Below the pieces are notes generated by a model. The model was not told where the DNA came from and ran no database searches. It saw only the letters and a program-made list of their open reading frames with translations. The position numbers and the translations under genes are program-made. Below, one piece after another: positions 12,474 through 19,351 of a stretch of DNA of 64,000 nt. This DNA comes from Mycolicibacterium sp. (GTDB taxonomy: Bacteria > Actinomycetota > Actinomycetes > Mycobacteriales > Mycobacteriaceae): the NCBI RefSeq assembly GCF_016462545.1, contig NZ_JAEMTA010000007.1, positions 1 to 64,000 on the forward strand. Reading direction: 5' to 3'. Numbering within the stretch: the stretch's first letter is position 1; every line of letters begins with the position of its first letter.

Positions 12474-13295
12474 ATGGGCGTGCGCAGCGAGGTACTGGTC
12501 ACGGCACGTGAACTCGGGCAGCTCATCTCGGGTGGAACGCCCCCGGTGATCCTGGACGTCCGCTGGCAGTTGGCCCAACCGGACGGTCGCCCCGACTACG
12601 AGGCGGGTCACGTTCCCGGCGCGGTGTACGTGTCGCTGGACGACGACCTGACCGATCATCGCGTGACTGGCAGGGGTCGGCACCCGCTGCCGACGGGAGC
12701 GGCACTGCAGGCCGCCGCGCGGCGGTGGGGGATCGGTGCGGGCAGCGCCGTCGTCGTCTACGACGACTGGAATCGGGCGGGTTCGGCACGGGCCTGGTGG
12801 GTGCTCAAGGCGGCGGGCCTGGTCGACGTCCGCATCCTCGACGGCGGGCTGGCCGCCTGGACGGGCCCTCTGCAGACGGGTGCCGTCACGCCCGAACCGG
12901 GCGACGTCACCGTCCTGCATGACGACCTCTACGCGGGCGCCATGCCGACGTTGAGCGCCGATGATGCGGCGGTGCTCGGGAGCCGGTTGGTCGATGCGCG
13001 TGCGCCGGAACGGTTTCGGGGTGAGGTCGAGCCGGTCGATCCGGTCGCGGGCCACATCCCCGGCGCCGTCAACGTGCCGAGTACCGCGCTGCTCGCTGCC
13101 GACGGGACGTTCCTCCCGGATGCCGAACTCGCACAGGCGCTCGACGGCGTCACCGGCGCCTACTGCGGGTCGGGGGTCACCGCGTCGGTGGCCGTGGCGG
13201 CATCGGCCGCGATCGGAACGGCCGCCGCGCTGTTCCCCGGGTCGTGGTCGCAGTGGAGTGCCGAACCCTCCCGTCCCGTCGCTACCGGCGGCTGA
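12474..13295 (+). CDS. Sulfurtransferase with two rhodanese domains
   Basis: MGVRSEVLVTARELGQLISGGTPPVILDVRW...YEAGHVPGAVYVSL...GAYCGSGVTASVAVAA (active-site Cys loop). Confidence 0.88.
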   Translation: MGVRSEVLVTARELGQLISGGTPPVILDVRWQLAQPDGRPDYEAGHVPGAVYVSLDDDLTDHRVTGRGRHPLPTGAALQAAARRWGIGAGSAVVVYDDWNRAGSARAWWVLKAAGLVDVRILDGGLAAWTGPLQTGAVTPEPGDVTVLHDDLYAGAMPTLSADDAAVLGSRLVDARAPERFRGEVEPVDPVAGHIPGAVNVPSTALLAADGTFLPDAELAQALDGVTGAYCGSGVTASVAVAASAAIGTAAALFPGSWSQWSAEPSRPVATGG

Positions 13296-14163
13296 CGCGC
13301 CTGCCGCCGATGGCCCAGCACAGCAGGAAGATCGCGAACGAGATCGTGGTGACGAACACCGAGACCGGGACGCCGGGGGCGAGCGACAGCAGGATGCCGC
13401 CGACGGCGGAGATCTCGGCGAACACCACCGAGGCGACGATCGTCGTCGCGGGTGCGGTGAAGATGCGGGCGGCCGCGGCGGCCGGGGTGATGAGCAGCGA
13501 CATGACCAGCAGAGCGCCCACGATCTGGACGCCCTGAGCAGCGGCGACGCCGACCAGGGCAGCGAAGACGATGCCGAGTGCGCGCACCGGTACGCCGCGC
13601 CCCGCCGCGACCTCCGGGTCCACGGTCGCGAACAGCAGCGGCCGGTAACTCACCGCGATCACGACGACGACCAACACGGTGATCGCGCTCAGTAGCGCCA
13701 GCCCGGAGTAGCCGACGCCCACGATCTGGCCGGTCAACAGTGCGAAGCTGGTGCCCGTCCGCCCGGGGTAGAGGTGGATGAACAGGACCGCGAGACCCAG
13801 TCCGAAGGCGAGGACGACGCCGATCGCCGAGTCGCGTTCCCTGGCGCGTTGCCCGAGGAAGCCGAATAGTATTGCCGCCAAGGCACTTCCGACGAGGGCG
13901 CCCAGCCCGACGTTGAAACCGGTGAGCAGCGCGAAGGATGCTCCCGTCAGTGACAGCTCACTCGAGCCGTGCACCGCGAAGGACATCTGCCGCATCACGA
14001 TGAACGGTCCGATCAGTCCGGCCAGCAGGGCCAGCAGTGCCGCGGCGAGCAGTGCCTGTTGCACGAAGTCACGCTGCAACAGGTCGGCGGTGACGCCGAA
14101 GTCGAACAGGCGACTCAGCAGGTCGCTCAGTCGGTCAGGCATGGTCGTGTCCGCTCGCCTCAC
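13282..14163 (-). CDS. znuB: Zinc/metal ABC transporter permease (ZnuB family); start possibly 14142
   Basis: ABC-3 family permease: SFAVHGSSELSLTGASFALLTG, GVPVRALGIVFAALVGVAAAQGVQIVGALLVMSLLITPAAAA. Confidence 0.88.
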   Translation of the reverse strand: MRRADTTMPDRLSDLLSRLFDFGVTADLLQRDFVQQALLAAALLALLAGLIGPFIVMRQMSFAVHGSSELSLTGASFALLTGFNVGLGALVGSALAAILFGFLGQRARERDSAIGVVLAFGLGLAVLFIHLYPGRTGTSFALLTGQIVGVGYSGLALLSAITVLVVVVIAVSYRPLLFATVDPEVAAGRGVPVRALGIVFAALVGVAAAQGVQIVGALLVMSLLITPAAAAARIFTAPATTIVASVVFAEISAVGGILLSLAPGVPVSVFVTTISFAIFLLCWAIGGRRVSRR

Positions 14164-14941
14164 CCGAATGGTCGTGGTGGGTTTCGCTGTGCTCGCCGAC
14201 GACCACGTACTGCTGCCCGATCTTCACGACCTGGATGTCGGCGCGGTAGAGCTCCGACAGAGTCTCCGAGGTCATCACCTCGGCGACGGTGCCGATGCGG
14301 AAGCGTCCGTCGACCAGGTACAGCACCCGGTCGACGTACGGCAGAACGGGATTCACCTCGTGCGTGACGAACAGCACGGCGGTGGCCGACTCGCGTCGGC
14401 GTTGGTCGATGAGCGCGGAGATCAGCCTGGCGTTGGCCGGATCCAGGTTGAGCAGGGGCTCGTCACACAGCAGCAGGGCAGGGTCGGTCGCCAGCGCCTG
14501 GGCGATGCGCACCCGCTGAAGTTCTCCACCGGACATCACTCCGACCGGGACGTCGCCGAGGTGAACTCCGTTGACCTGCCCAAGTGCTCGGGAGACGATG
14601 GCACGCTTGGCGGTCCGCTGACGTGGGCTGGTGATTCCCCATCGGTGCCCGTCGTAGCCGAGGCCGACCAGGTCGCGACCGCGCAGGGTCAGGCCGCCGT
14701 CCATCGAACGGTGTTGGGGCACATAGCCGACTCCGCCGGCCACGGTGGCGTTGCCTGCGCTGAGCGGCACCTGGCCGAGCAGCACCTTCAACAGCGACGT
14801 CTTGCCCGTGCCGTTGGGGCCGAGGACGGCGATGAACTCGCCCGCTGCCACGGTCAGGTCGAGTTGATCCCACAGGACACGCCCGCCGAAGGCGAGGCAG
14901 GCGCCCGACAGTTCGACGACGGGAGGTTGGTCAGGCGCCAT
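14135..14941 (-). CDS. znuC: Zinc/metal ABC transporter ATP-binding protein (ZnuC family) with His-rich C-terminal tail
   Basis: Walker A GPNGTGKTSLL, MSGGELQRVRIAQALATDPALLLCDEPLLNLD; tail HSETHHDHSGEASGHDHA. Confidence 0.9.
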   Translation of the reverse strand: MAPDQPPVVELSGACLAFGGRVLWDQLDLTVAAGEFIAVLGPNGTGKTSLLKVLLGQVPLSAGNATVAGGVGYVPQHRSMDGGLTLRGRDLVGLGYDGHRWGITSPRQRTAKRAIVSRALGQVNGVHLGDVPVGVMSGGELQRVRIAQALATDPALLLCDEPLLNLDPANARLISALIDQRRRESATAVLFVTHEVNPVLPYVDRVLYLVDGRFRIGTVAEVMTSETLSELYRADIQVVKIGQQYVVVGEHSETHHDHSGEASGHDHA

Positions 14942-14950
14942 GGATGGACA

Positions 14951-15877
14951 TCATCGCGTCACGGCGGGGGCGCGGTCCAACTGGTCGGCGAACTCCTGCA
15001 CCGTCGCGCGCTGCCAGCCCAGGTAGTCGAGGTTGTCCTGCAGTGTCTCGGCGACCGTGATGATCGGGACGCCCGCCTTGCGGGCGGCGTCCTGGATCTG
15101 GTTCGTGACGGCGGTTTCGGTCTGCTTGTTGAGCACGACGGCCGACACCTGGCGGCCGCTGATGAGGTCCAGCATCGCTGCGACGTCGACCGGTGCGGGG
15201 TCGTCGCCCTCTTCGATGGCGCTGGCGAACGACTCCGGGGTGCGGTCCGTGATGCCGGCCGCGGCGAGAAGGTAGTGCGCGACGGGTTCGGTGGCCACGA
15301 CGGCGACACCGGGGTGCTTGCGGCCGATCTCGCGTTCGGATTCGGCGATCGCATCTGCTTGGGTCCCGAAGGCGGTTGCGTTGTCGCGGTAGGCGGCGGC
15401 ATTCGCCGGGTCGTCGCTCGCGAGATGGTCGGCGATGCTCGCGGCCACCGCCTTCGCGGTCGCGAGGTCGTAGAACACGTGCTCGTTGGCGGGTTGGCCG
15501 TCGGGTTGCTGCGGGGTCAGCGAGTAGGCGTCGACGGTCGTGACCCCTTCGTGCGCGTGGAGGACGTCATCGGCCCATTGGTCGTAGTGGCCGCCGTTGT
15601 AGACGACCAGGTTCGCGTCGGCGATCGCCGCTGCGTCCGATGGCGTTGCCTCGTAGGAATGCGGATCGTCGACCGCGCTGTTGAGGATCGAGCGGACCGT
15701 CGAGTGGTCACCGGCGACCGCCTTGGCGACGCTGCCCCACACGTCGGTCGTGGCGATGACGGTCGGGGTGCCCGACTGGTCCGGGGGCGCCGACGTTCCG
15801 CATGCCGCGGCGCCGAATGCGACCAGGGTGAGCCCGAGCGTCAACGCGGTCCGGACGGGCGTGCGATGAACCACCAC
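14951..15877 (-). CDS. znuA: Zinc/metal ABC transporter substrate-binding protein (ZnuA family)
   Basis: Signal peptide/lipobox AFGAAACG; TroA-family motifs DDPHSYEATPSDA, YNGGHYDQWAD, EHVFYDLATAKAVA, HPGVAVVATEPVAHYLL. Confidence 0.88.
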   Translation of the reverse strand: MVVHRTPVRTALTLGLTLVAFGAAACGTSAPPDQSGTPTVIATTDVWGSVAKAVAGDHSTVRSILNSAVDDPHSYEATPSDAAAIADANLVVYNGGHYDQWADDVLHAHEGVTTVDAYSLTPQQPDGQPANEHVFYDLATAKAVAASIADHLASDDPANAAAYRDNATAFGTQADAIAESEREIGRKHPGVAVVATEPVAHYLLAAAGITDRTPESFASAIEEGDDPAPVDVAAMLDLISGRQVSAVVLNKQTETAVTNQIQDAARKAGVPIITVAETLQDNLDYLGWQRATVQEFADQLDRAPAVTR

Positions 15878-15892
15878 TCGAACTCCTCGATG

Positions 15893-15915
15893 TTAATGAA
15901 AACCATTTCCATTAA
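15893..15915. promoter_or_regulatory. Candidate Zur operator in the znuA / beta-propeller divergent promoter
   Basis: ttaatgaaaaccatttccattaa; perfect outer TTAATG...CATTAA arms with AAA/TTT inner positions, resembling the mycobacterial Zur box TnATGAAAATnATTTTCATnA. Confidence 0.75.
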
Positions 15916-15924
15916 TAGTAGGGC

Positions 15925-18216
15925 ATGGCCGAGGTGGTGCGCAAAGGCAGCTTGCGAACAGCCCTCCTCGACTCCGAAAGGGGTGGTGGGGCGCTGAACT
16001 CTAGGGGAATCCCTGATTCGCAGGGTGGGGGCTCGGCGTCATCATTGTCTGGACGACGTCAGAAGGGACGACGGCGAGGGGTTCGGACGGTGCGCAACTC
16101 GAGACACCTCCGGGCCGTCAGGGCCGTCGTAGTCGCCTTCGGCATTGGTGTGGTGGCGATGCTCGATCCGGGCATCGCGGTAGCCGATCCAACGGCCGAT
16201 GCGTCCTCTGACTCGTCCGAGGTCGGGGGTCCGGTACGGGGAGGTCCGGACCCGAAGACGGAGCTCGGGGTGGTGTCGCCTGGGGGGTCGACGCCACCCG
16301 CGGGGGCGGGCTCCGTCGATGCCGGGTCGGGGCCCGACGTCACGTCGGGCCCCGATCGGGCCAGCGGGTCGACCGCGTCGACCGGCTCGGCTGAGACCGC
16401 GAGCGAACCGGCGCCCGGCGTGATCGTACGAAGTTCGGGTGGTGCACTCACCTCCGATGAGCAGGAGCAGTTCGCCGGCGCTCAACGATCCGATCCGCAA
16501 CCGGTCGAGTCCCAGAGCCCCGCGGGAACCGAGGCCACCTCCGTCGCCGCCGCGGGTCGGGTTCGTCCGCGCGGCCACGAAGCGGTCGCCGAGAACGCGT
16601 TCAGGGTGTCCGTGCCCGTCGTGCGCATGGCGTCTCAACCCATGGTTCCCGCGATGTCGGAGATCCCCTCGCCGACCGCGCCCCTCGACGTCGTCGCCGG
16701 TGATCGGGCGTTCTCACTCGGGCACGAGCCGGTCGCCGTCAACGCGATGGCCGTGCCACGTGGCCTAGCGCCGGTCGACCCGAGGCGGCCCATCGAGACG
16801 TCGTTGCAGACGTTCACGGGTGCGCTCGCGGCGGCGCTGGCTCCGTTCGTCCTGCCACTGCCCGGAGTGCCGTTGGACGAGCCGGCCCTGTGGGCCGTAC
16901 TCGCCTGGACGCGAAGACAATTCGACGGCCACGCGCTCGTTGGACGGCTGAGCCCGGCGGCCCTCCCCCGGCAGACCGAGCAGATCGCGACCGATGAGGC
17001 GACGGACACGGCCGGTGCCACCGTCGATCGCGTCGACCGAATGACGGGCCGAGTCACGGGTCGTGTCAATCTCGTTGGCGAACGCGACGGCCTCGACTAC
17101 GAGCTCGTCAAGCCACTCGACCAACGGGTTGGCGTGGTCACCGTCGACGGCGCCACCGGGCGGTGGACCTTCACGCCCCACCAGGTCGCCCGGCTCGCCA
17201 CGTATCTCGACGACGGCGTAGTCGTCACGTTCGGCGTCGCCGCGTCGAATGGCCGGGCGACCGTCGTGAATGTTCCGGTCGACCCGGCAGAGGCCGTCGT
17301 CACCGACACCATCGAGACCGGCGACGGGCTGACCTACGGCTTGGCCGCCGTTGGCGACCGGCTCTGCGTGCTCAGCGGCTCCGACGGACCGGCCGGAAAC
17401 GGTCGCGTCAAGATCATCGACACGTCGACCAAGGCGATCATCGCGTCCGTCGAGGTGGGCAGCATGCCCTTCGGGCTGGCCGCCAGCGGTAGGTCGCTGT
17501 ATGTGGGGAACGCCGACGACGGCACCGTGTCGGTGGTCGACGTCGCATCCAGCAGGCTCGTCGACGTCATCGACGTCGGTGCCAATCCGTTCGGCCTCGA
17601 GATCAGCGGCGACCGCCTCTATGTCGCCGACCAGTCCGGCACGGTCTCGGTCATCGACCTCGACGATCACACCGAGTTGGCCCGGATCCCCATCGCCGGC
17701 GACCCGTTCGGAGTCGCCGCCACCGCAGACCGCGTGTACGTCACGAACTATGCGGGCGGCACGCTGGCCATCGTCGATCGGGCCACCCACACCGCCGTGG
17801 ACATGGAGCTCTCCGCCGATCCCCTCGACGTCGGCGGCTATCCGTACTTCGCGGCGGTGATGGGTGATCGCCTGTACGTCGTCAACTCCGCGACGAACGC
17901 GCTCACCATCGTCGACGGGTCGGTCACCACCGCGGTGGACGTCGCTCCCCACACCCGTGCCGTGGACGCGATCCCCGTCGACGCATCGCCGGTCGACGTG
18001 GTCGTGCGCGGTGATCGGCTCTACGTGAGCAACGTCAACAGTGGAAGCGTCGTCGTGGTCGACGTGGCCACCAATCAGCCCGTCGAGAACATCGGAGTCG
18101 GCATTGCGCCGGGGCTGATGACGGCGACGCCCGAGGGGCGCACCATCTACGTCGCCGACGTCATGAGCGGCACGGTGCGCGTGATCACCAGCGTGCGCCA
18201 CGCGGCCAACGACTGA
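15925..18216 (+). CDS. Secreted YVTN-family beta-propeller repeat protein with low-complexity N-terminal region (start may be GTG at 16090)
   Basis: Signal peptide (RAVRAVVVAFGIGVVAMLDPGIAVADP), Ser/Gly/Pro-rich linker, VCBS/Ig-like segment (LDYELVKPLDQRVGVVTVDGATGRWTFTP), then about seven repeats of the GDRLYVxNxxxGTVSVVDxxT type. Confidence 0.85.
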   Translation: MAEVVRKGSLRTALLDSERGGGALNSRGIPDSQGGGSASSLSGRRQKGRRRGVRTVRNSRHLRAVRAVVVAFGIGVVAMLDPGIAVADPTADASSDSSEVGGPVRGGPDPKTELGVVSPGGSTPPAGAGSVDAGSGPDVTSGPDRASGSTASTGSAETASEPAPGVIVRSSGGALTSDEQEQFAGAQRSDPQPVESQSPAGTEATSVAAAGRVRPRGHEAVAENAFRVSVPVVRMASQPMVPAMSEIPSPTAPLDVVAGDRAFSLGHEPVAVNAMAVPRGLAPVDPRRPIETSLQTFTGALAAALAPFVLPLPGVPLDEPALWAVLAWTRRQFDGHALVGRLSPAALPRQTEQIATDEATDTAGATVDRVDRMTGRVTGRVNLVGERDGLDYELVKPLDQRVGVVTVDGATGRWTFTPHQVARLATYLDDGVVVTFGVAASNGRATVVNVPVDPAEAVVTDTIETGDGLTYGLAAVGDRLCVLSGSDGPAGNGRVKIIDTSTKAIIASVEVGSMPFGLAASGRSLYVGNADDGTVSVVDVASSRLVDVIDVGANPFGLEISGDRLYVADQSGTVSVIDLDDHTELARIPIAGDPFGVAATADRVYVTNYAGGTLAIVDRATHTAVDMELSADPLDVGGYPYFAAVMGDRLYVVNSATNALTIVDGSVTTAVDVAPHTRAVDAIPVDASPVDVVVRGDRLYVSNVNSGSVVVVDVATNQPVENIGVGIAPGLMTATPEGRTIYVADVMSGTVRVITSVRHAAND

Positions 18217-18250
18217 CCCGCAACCATCGAATCCGCTAGCGTCATGCACC

Positions 18251-19351
18251 ATGTCCAGAGGTCCGGTGCCGCGTCGGCGCGCAACCCTGGCGTCGCTGGC
18301 CGCGGAACTCAAGGTTTCGCGCACCACGATCTCCAATGCCTACAACCGGCCCGACCAACTCTCGGCCGATCTGCGCGAGCGCGTGCTCGCTACCGCCAAG
18401 CAATTGGGTTATGCGGGGCCCGATCCGGTCGCCCGCTCGCTTCGCACCCGTCGGGCGGGGGCGGTGGGCCTGATGCTCACCGAACCGCTGAACTACTCGT
18501 TCCGCGACCCCGCTGCCCTCGACTTCGTCGCCGGACTCGCCGAATCGTGTGAGGAGGCGGGGCAGGGCCTGTTGTTGATCGCGGCCGGTCCGAACCGCAG
18601 CGTGAGCGACGGCACGGCGGCGGTGTTGTCGGCCGGCGTCGACGGTTTCGTCGTCTACTCCGCCTCCGACGATGACCCCTACCTGCAGGTGATCACGCAG
18701 CGCGCACTGCCGATCGTGGTGGTCGACCAGCCCGCGGACGTGCCCGGCGCATCGCGGGTGGGCATCGACGACCGCGCGGCGATGCGCGGGGTCGCGGAGT
18801 ACGTCATCGGGCTCGGGCACCGCGACATCGGGGTGCTCACGATGCGGCTCGGACGCGAGTGGCCGCACGCCGACGCGGTGGCTGCCGTCGCCGACCTCGA
18901 ACGTGCGGGCACTCCGCACTTCCACGTCCAGCGCGAGCGCATCCACGGCGTTCGGGATGCCATGAAGAGCGCTGGGCTGCAACCGGATTCGCTGACGGTG
19001 GTGGAGAGCTACGATCACCTGCCGACGTCCGGTGGCAGCGCGGCCGCGGTCGCACTCGAGGCCAATCCGCGGATCACCGCACTGATGTGCACCACCGATG
19101 TGCTCGCGCTTTCGGCCATGGATCATCTACGCGCACATGGCATCTACGTGCCGGGTCAGGTCACCGTGACCGGCTTCGACGGCGTGCCCGACGCTCTCGC
19201 CCGTGGCCTGACGACGGTCAAGCAGCCCAGTGTCGAGAAGGGACGCCGGGCCGGTCACCTCTTGCACAACCCACCCCGTTCGGGCCTGCCCGAGATCGAG
19301 GTGCTGGAGACCGAACTGGTGCGGGGCCGGACGTCCGGCCCCGCTGGCTAG
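18251..19351 (+). CDS. LacI-family transcriptional regulator
   Basis: N-terminal HTH LASLAAELKVSRTTISNAYNRPDQLSADLRERVLATAKQLGY; periplasmic-binding-like C-domain. Corresponds by position to M. tuberculosis Rv3575c. Confidence 0.93.
   Translation: MSRGPVPRRRATLASLAAELKVSRTTISNAYNRPDQLSADLRERVLATAKQLGYAGPDPVARSLRTRRAGAVGLMLTEPLNYSFRDPAALDFVAGLAESCEEAGQGLLLIAAGPNRSVSDGTAAVLSAGVDGFVVYSASDDDPYLQVITQRALPIVVVDQPADVPGASRVGIDDRAAMRGVAEYVIGLGHRDIGVLTMRLGREWPHADAVAAVADLERAGTPHFHVQRERIHGVRDAMKSAGLQPDSLTVVESYDHLPTSGGSAAAVALEANPRITALMCTTDVLALSAMDHLRAHGIYVPGQVTVTGFDGVPDALARGLTTVKQPSVEKGRRAGHLLHNPPRSGLPEIEVLETELVRGRTSGPAG

Follow-up and report, generated by a model that had tools for sequence, protein, structure and literature searches.

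Gene organization between znuA and lacI

The stretch of DNA analysed here, referred to as the window, covers 64,000 nucleotides of Mycolicibacterium sp. (contig NZ_JAEMTA010000007.1, positions 1 to 64,000). M. hodleri and M. yunnanensis are near relatives of the source strain. Its minus strand carries znuB (zinc ABC transporter permease; 13282..14163, Pfam PF00950), znuC (zinc ABC transporter ATPase; 14135..14941, PF00005) and znuA (zinc-binding lipoprotein; 14951..15877, PF01297 with E 8.5e-53), the last having orthologues in about 50 mycobacteria, and these Pfam assignments bear out the znuABC identity given in the original prediction. In the opposite direction lies a gene (16090..18216, plus strand, starting at a conserved GTG) for a secreted protein of 708 amino acids with an Ig-like domain and a C-terminal seven-repeat beta-propeller, hereafter the propeller gene. 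It is followed on the same strand by the gene for a LacI-family regulator (18251..19351), recognized by domain search and by locus comparison as the ancestral divergent neighbor of znuABC.

The Zur box of the znuABC operon

A palindrome of 23 bp (15893-15915, core 15897-15911) is located 15 bp upstream of the GTG start codon of znuA (15877), at the position originally described, and it far exceeds chance expectation, as dinucleotide shuffles of the window gave no match to it even with three mismatches allowed. The core TGRAAAYSRTTTYCA has only two exact matches in the 6.25-Mb genome, one being the znuA box and the other located at the smtB-zur operon, in which smtB and zur were identified from their ORFs and from their ArsR and FUR domains. 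The znuA-upstream box is retained in nearly all of the mycobacterial loci examined, both with and without the propeller gene, and in mycobacterial loci an AT-rich stretch adjoins it on the znuA side. In M. smegmatis, Zur represses both znuABC and smtB-zur, and the form of its Zur sites matches that of the window palindrome (PMC7174638). The operator of the M. smegmatis znuABC genes (MSMEG_6045-6047; PMC7174638) is likewise an AT-rich palindrome of the TGRAAAN3TTTYCA type immediately upstream of znuA, and in M. smegmatis as in the window genome the smtB-zur operon bears the same operator. The genes neighboring the two znuABC loci differ, however.

Because of the operator match at smtB-zur, the published M. 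smegmatis sites and the genus-wide conservation upstream of znuA, the palindrome, first noted only as Zur-box-like, is supported as a Zur box serving znuABC, and Zur presumably acts on it. Following the M. smegmatis model, zinc-loaded Zur would bind the palindrome and repress znuABC, while zinc starvation would free znuABC from this repression.

Translation start and structure of the propeller protein

The original prediction placed the palindrome 9 bp upstream of the propeller ORF and gave 15925 or 16090 as its start. Alignment favored the latter position: the six orthologues all begin at the equivalent of GTG 16090, preceded by a Shine-Dalgarno-like GAGGGG or AAGGGG (GAGGGG in the window) at a distance of a few bases. 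ATG 15925 was ruled out as the translation start by its lack of conservation and by frame breaks: between 15925 and 16089, indels of lengths not divisible by three disrupt the frame in three relatives, and in-frame stops occur 84-132 nt upstream of the propeller GTG in four of the five relatives. The distance from the box to the start codon is thus 174 bp and not 9 bp.

The description of the product as a secreted YVTN-like protein of about seven repeats was correct. The encoded protein has seven repeats of the YVTN type and an N-terminus resembling a signal peptide, and its score of 105.8 bits against the TIGR02276 YVTN repeat profile lies well above the cut-off of 27.85, indicating membership. 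The C-terminal 396 residues (17026..18213, plus strand), comprising an Ig-like domain and then the YVTN propeller, were modelled by AlphaFold2 from five sequences (pLDDT 80, pTM 0.79), and the model matches E. coli YncE (3vgz) and the YVTN propeller found in an S-layer protein from an archaeon (1l0q). Both agree with the window protein in fold and repeat type but are only 17-26% identical to it, and their genomic context is not in common with it.

The original prediction knew of no propeller protein in zinc acquisition, but AztD is such a protein, a beta-propeller that acts as a zinc chaperone and possesses a disulphide and conserved histidine sites (PMC6689063). AztD and the window protein are both beta-propellers located outside the cytoplasm, and the gene of each adjoins those of a zinc ABC importer. 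AztD has eight blades, clusters of conserved histidines and the disulphide, whereas the window protein has seven repeats, and the residues invariant across its six orthologues include one histidine and no cysteine; the conserved His/Asp zinc sites and the disulphide of AztD are not found in these six orthologues. The profile matches that might point to a named family are weak: 19.2 bits for AztD (NCBIfam NF038015; cut-off 400), 31.9 bits for YncE (cut-off 400) and 33.7 bits for the MmpL3/TtfA complex stabilizer (NF048007; equivalog cut-off 600). As these scores lie far below the cut-offs, and as the N-terminal Ig-like module and the long linker give the window protein a different architecture, all three candidates were rejected, and it is scarcely credible that the protein is an orthologue of any of them. 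The sequence does not indicate a zinc chaperone, nor does it support a role in zinc handling. The protein is most likely a scaffold or adhesive protein of the cell surface or the extracellular space.

Predicted promoter of the propeller gene

Between the box and the propeller gene, a palindromic element TAGGGGAATCCCTGATTCG is located at 16002..16020 (plus strand), with 14 of its 19 columns identical among the six orthologues. It is followed after 19 bp by a -10-like hexamer CATCAT (16040..16045, plus strand), of which five of six columns are identical and the register may be one base earlier; the orthologues have SATCAT at this position. The intervening 19 bp are gapless in the six orthologues and yet identical in only one or two of the 19 columns, and it is because the length of this spacer is fixed while its sequence is free that 16002-16045 is read as a promoter. 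The sequence from the box to the element is poorly conserved (17/85 columns identical). SATCAT fits TANNNT less well than do the -10 hexamers of other genes that bear the element.

The predicted promoter is found downstream of the box, at a distance of about 90-140 bp, and does not overlap the operator; its conservation indicates that the propeller gene probably has a promoter of its own, separate from the box. Transcription would be directed by the element TAGGGRWWTCCCYGATKCG together with the fixed 19-bp spacer and the -10-like hexamer, and would produce a short leader followed by translation from GTG 16090. We infer that this promoter is active and that Zur has no effect on it. A Zur-independent promoter downstream of the palindrome had been named in advance as evidence against joint control; the conserved 16002-16045 has the position foreseen, and its independence of Zur is likely.

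Distribution of the propeller gene among mycobacteria

The distribution of the propeller gene was determined from 199 sampled genomes and about 50 mycobacterial znuA loci. The common gene order in the latter is tetR-(otsB)-lacI<>znuABC-lamB, and only in the window and in L040-L043 does a propeller gene lie between lacI and znuA. Among the loci compared, the divergent propeller-znuA pair, whose conservation was raised in the original prediction, is confined to these few. A -10 of the TAGCGT/TAACGT type is located a few bases from the lacI start in both arrangements (TAGCGT at 18237..18242, plus strand, in the window), being kept next to lacI with or without an upstream propeller gene. On the propeller side, the right flank of the box (15916..15928) resembles by eye the lacI-side flank of propeller-less genomes (AATAGTAGGGCATGG versus AATAACTCTAGGGCATTGG). 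Since lacI keeps its own -10 and the box keeps an ancestral-looking flank, the propeller cassette is placed between the box and the lacI promoter. The distribution suggests that the propeller gene was gained by insertion in one small clade and not lost everywhere else; a separate surface-protein unit would have entered the gap between the box and the lacI promoter, bringing its own promoter with it.

In the sixth genome with the propeller gene (G178), the surroundings of the gene and its promoter are unchanged, yet neither the box nor an orthologous znuABC is present. At this locus (L126, G178:C24) the znuABC operon and the Zur box are missing together, with the flanking genes in place, and the sole ZnuA left is a 32%-identical paralogue encoded elsewhere in the genome. 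G178 thus offers a natural test that separates the propeller promoter from the box, one that represents a single event in one draft genome. Relatives have a second znuABC locus, a paralogous one, that bears a Zur-type box; no propeller gene was seen by eye at the two such loci inspected.

In the same comparison, contigs labelled as Bifidobacterium breve MAGs (L054 and L071) were found to bear mycobacterial znuABC-lamB loci, so that these bins look mislabelled or contaminated. The znuA locus in a record titled Kitasatospora arboriphila (L095) is very like that of Williamsia muralis in layout, with a similar box, and may also be mislabelled.

Recurrence of the promoter element

The element was searched for with a reversed-pattern control. 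In the six genomes of the clade, the element alone, at up to 2 mismatches, gave 22 sites, and the element plus the spaced TANNNT, at up to 3 mismatches, gave 21; the reversed pattern gave 0 in each search. Across the genus, for which 79 genomes were searched, the element with the spaced TANNNT occurs at 60 sites distributed over 26 genomes, again with 0 in the control. The arrangement of TAGGGRWWTCCCYGATTC, 19 bp and TANNNT precedes many mycobacterial genes that are small or have secreted products (window 16002-16045; L150-L165, L166-L186 and L196-L223). By our reading, the genes downstream include those for small secreted peptides, for a PE protein (this one confirmed by domain search) and for PE-PPE-like and Excalibur-like secreted proteins. 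Others encode long secreted proteins of bacterial Ig or tandem-95 repeats with a terminal propeller.

The window protein is homologous to these long proteins in its N-terminus (E 3e-13) and in its propeller (E 4e-7). It has in common with the tandem-95/Ig-repeat propeller proteins of L187, L188 and L190 the promoter element as well as a homologous signal region, the LWxVLAxxRRQF module, an Ig-like domain and a propeller at the C-terminus. It differs from them in being shorter, in having only one Ig-like domain, and in that its YVTN repeats are more regular. Another family of about 100 amino acids downstream of the element (L196-L200, L204-L206, L213, L215, L217, L218 and L222) is recognized by the pattern AEWYxPxL...VDDIVxRLDAAA...VPTDEVLYGVF...CxRAG. 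Its start codon often lies about 7 nt past the -10, which suggests leaderless mRNAs, and the one member tested gave no match in Pfam or NCBIfam.

A literature text search with variants of the element motif, which would miss motifs drawn only in figures, returned nothing relevant; the element is apparently unnamed, although missing text matches are weak evidence of novelty. We give even odds to the proposal that TAGGGRWWTCCCYGATTC, the 19-bp spacer and TANNNT serve as the operator for a mycobacterial regulator not yet described, which would coordinate secreted and surface genes. Its targets would then be the propeller/tandem-95, PE, PE-PPE-like, small secreted and leaderless-looking 100-residue proteins, the window propeller among them. 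Because the element is common to other secreted genes, including those for Ig-repeat propeller proteins, the propeller gene probably answers to the regulator that reads the element, and not to Zur. That regulator could itself respond to metals.

Regulation of the propeller gene

We assign a probability of about 0.83 to the reading in which the palindrome serves znuABC as its Zur operator, and the propeller gene is a separate surface unit, inserted in one clade with its own promoter and not run by Zur. Identity of the box, start site, insertion, conserved promoter and recurrence of the element can all be read from the sequences compared. The original prediction, in which Zur bound at the palindrome represses znuABC and the propeller gene alike and the propeller serves as an extracellular zinc-starvation factor, draws on the fact that a true Zur box separates the two genes, on the precedent of beta-propellers such as AztD that are zinc chaperones, and on M. 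smegmatis MSMEG_6049, an uncharacterised secreted protein under Zur (PMC7174638). The propeller start is, however, 174 bp off, with the conserved promoter in between; G178 keeps the propeller and its promoter without box or znuABC; the gene was probably inserted into an older lacI<>znuA arrangement; and the protein has no conserved metal ligands. The palindrome is common to the two genes in position, but with a conserved promoter downstream of the box its functional sharing is not supported, and neither is a zinc-starvation factor under Zur in the case of a clade-specific insertion of this kind. Joint control therefore appears highly improbable.

Somewhat less improbable, but still unlikely, is a mixed arrangement, in which an ancestral Zur-controlled rightward promoter by the box, once facing lacI, reads through into a mainly Zur-independent propeller gene without any zinc function. 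The AT-rich ancestral flank of the box that faces the propeller might hold a weak promoter for such read-through, as this flank resembles that of genomes with lacI as the neighbor and no gene intervenes between it and the propeller. Against this, the flank contains no good TANNNT, lacI has a separate and better -10 at its own start, and the sequence from the box to the element is identical in only 17 of 85 columns. Zur is able to act at a distance, and long-range action or Zur-controlled read-through into the propeller gene is possible. On balance we prefer the propeller gene as an inserted unit with its own promoter.

Biological implications

The analysis tells a well-understood zinc operator apart from a neighboring gene that merely looks co-regulated, with an operator-less relative as the natural test. 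Its most interesting by-product is the promoter element, which is conserved, apparently unnamed, and located before many mycobacterial surface-protein genes, so that its regulator can be sought directly.
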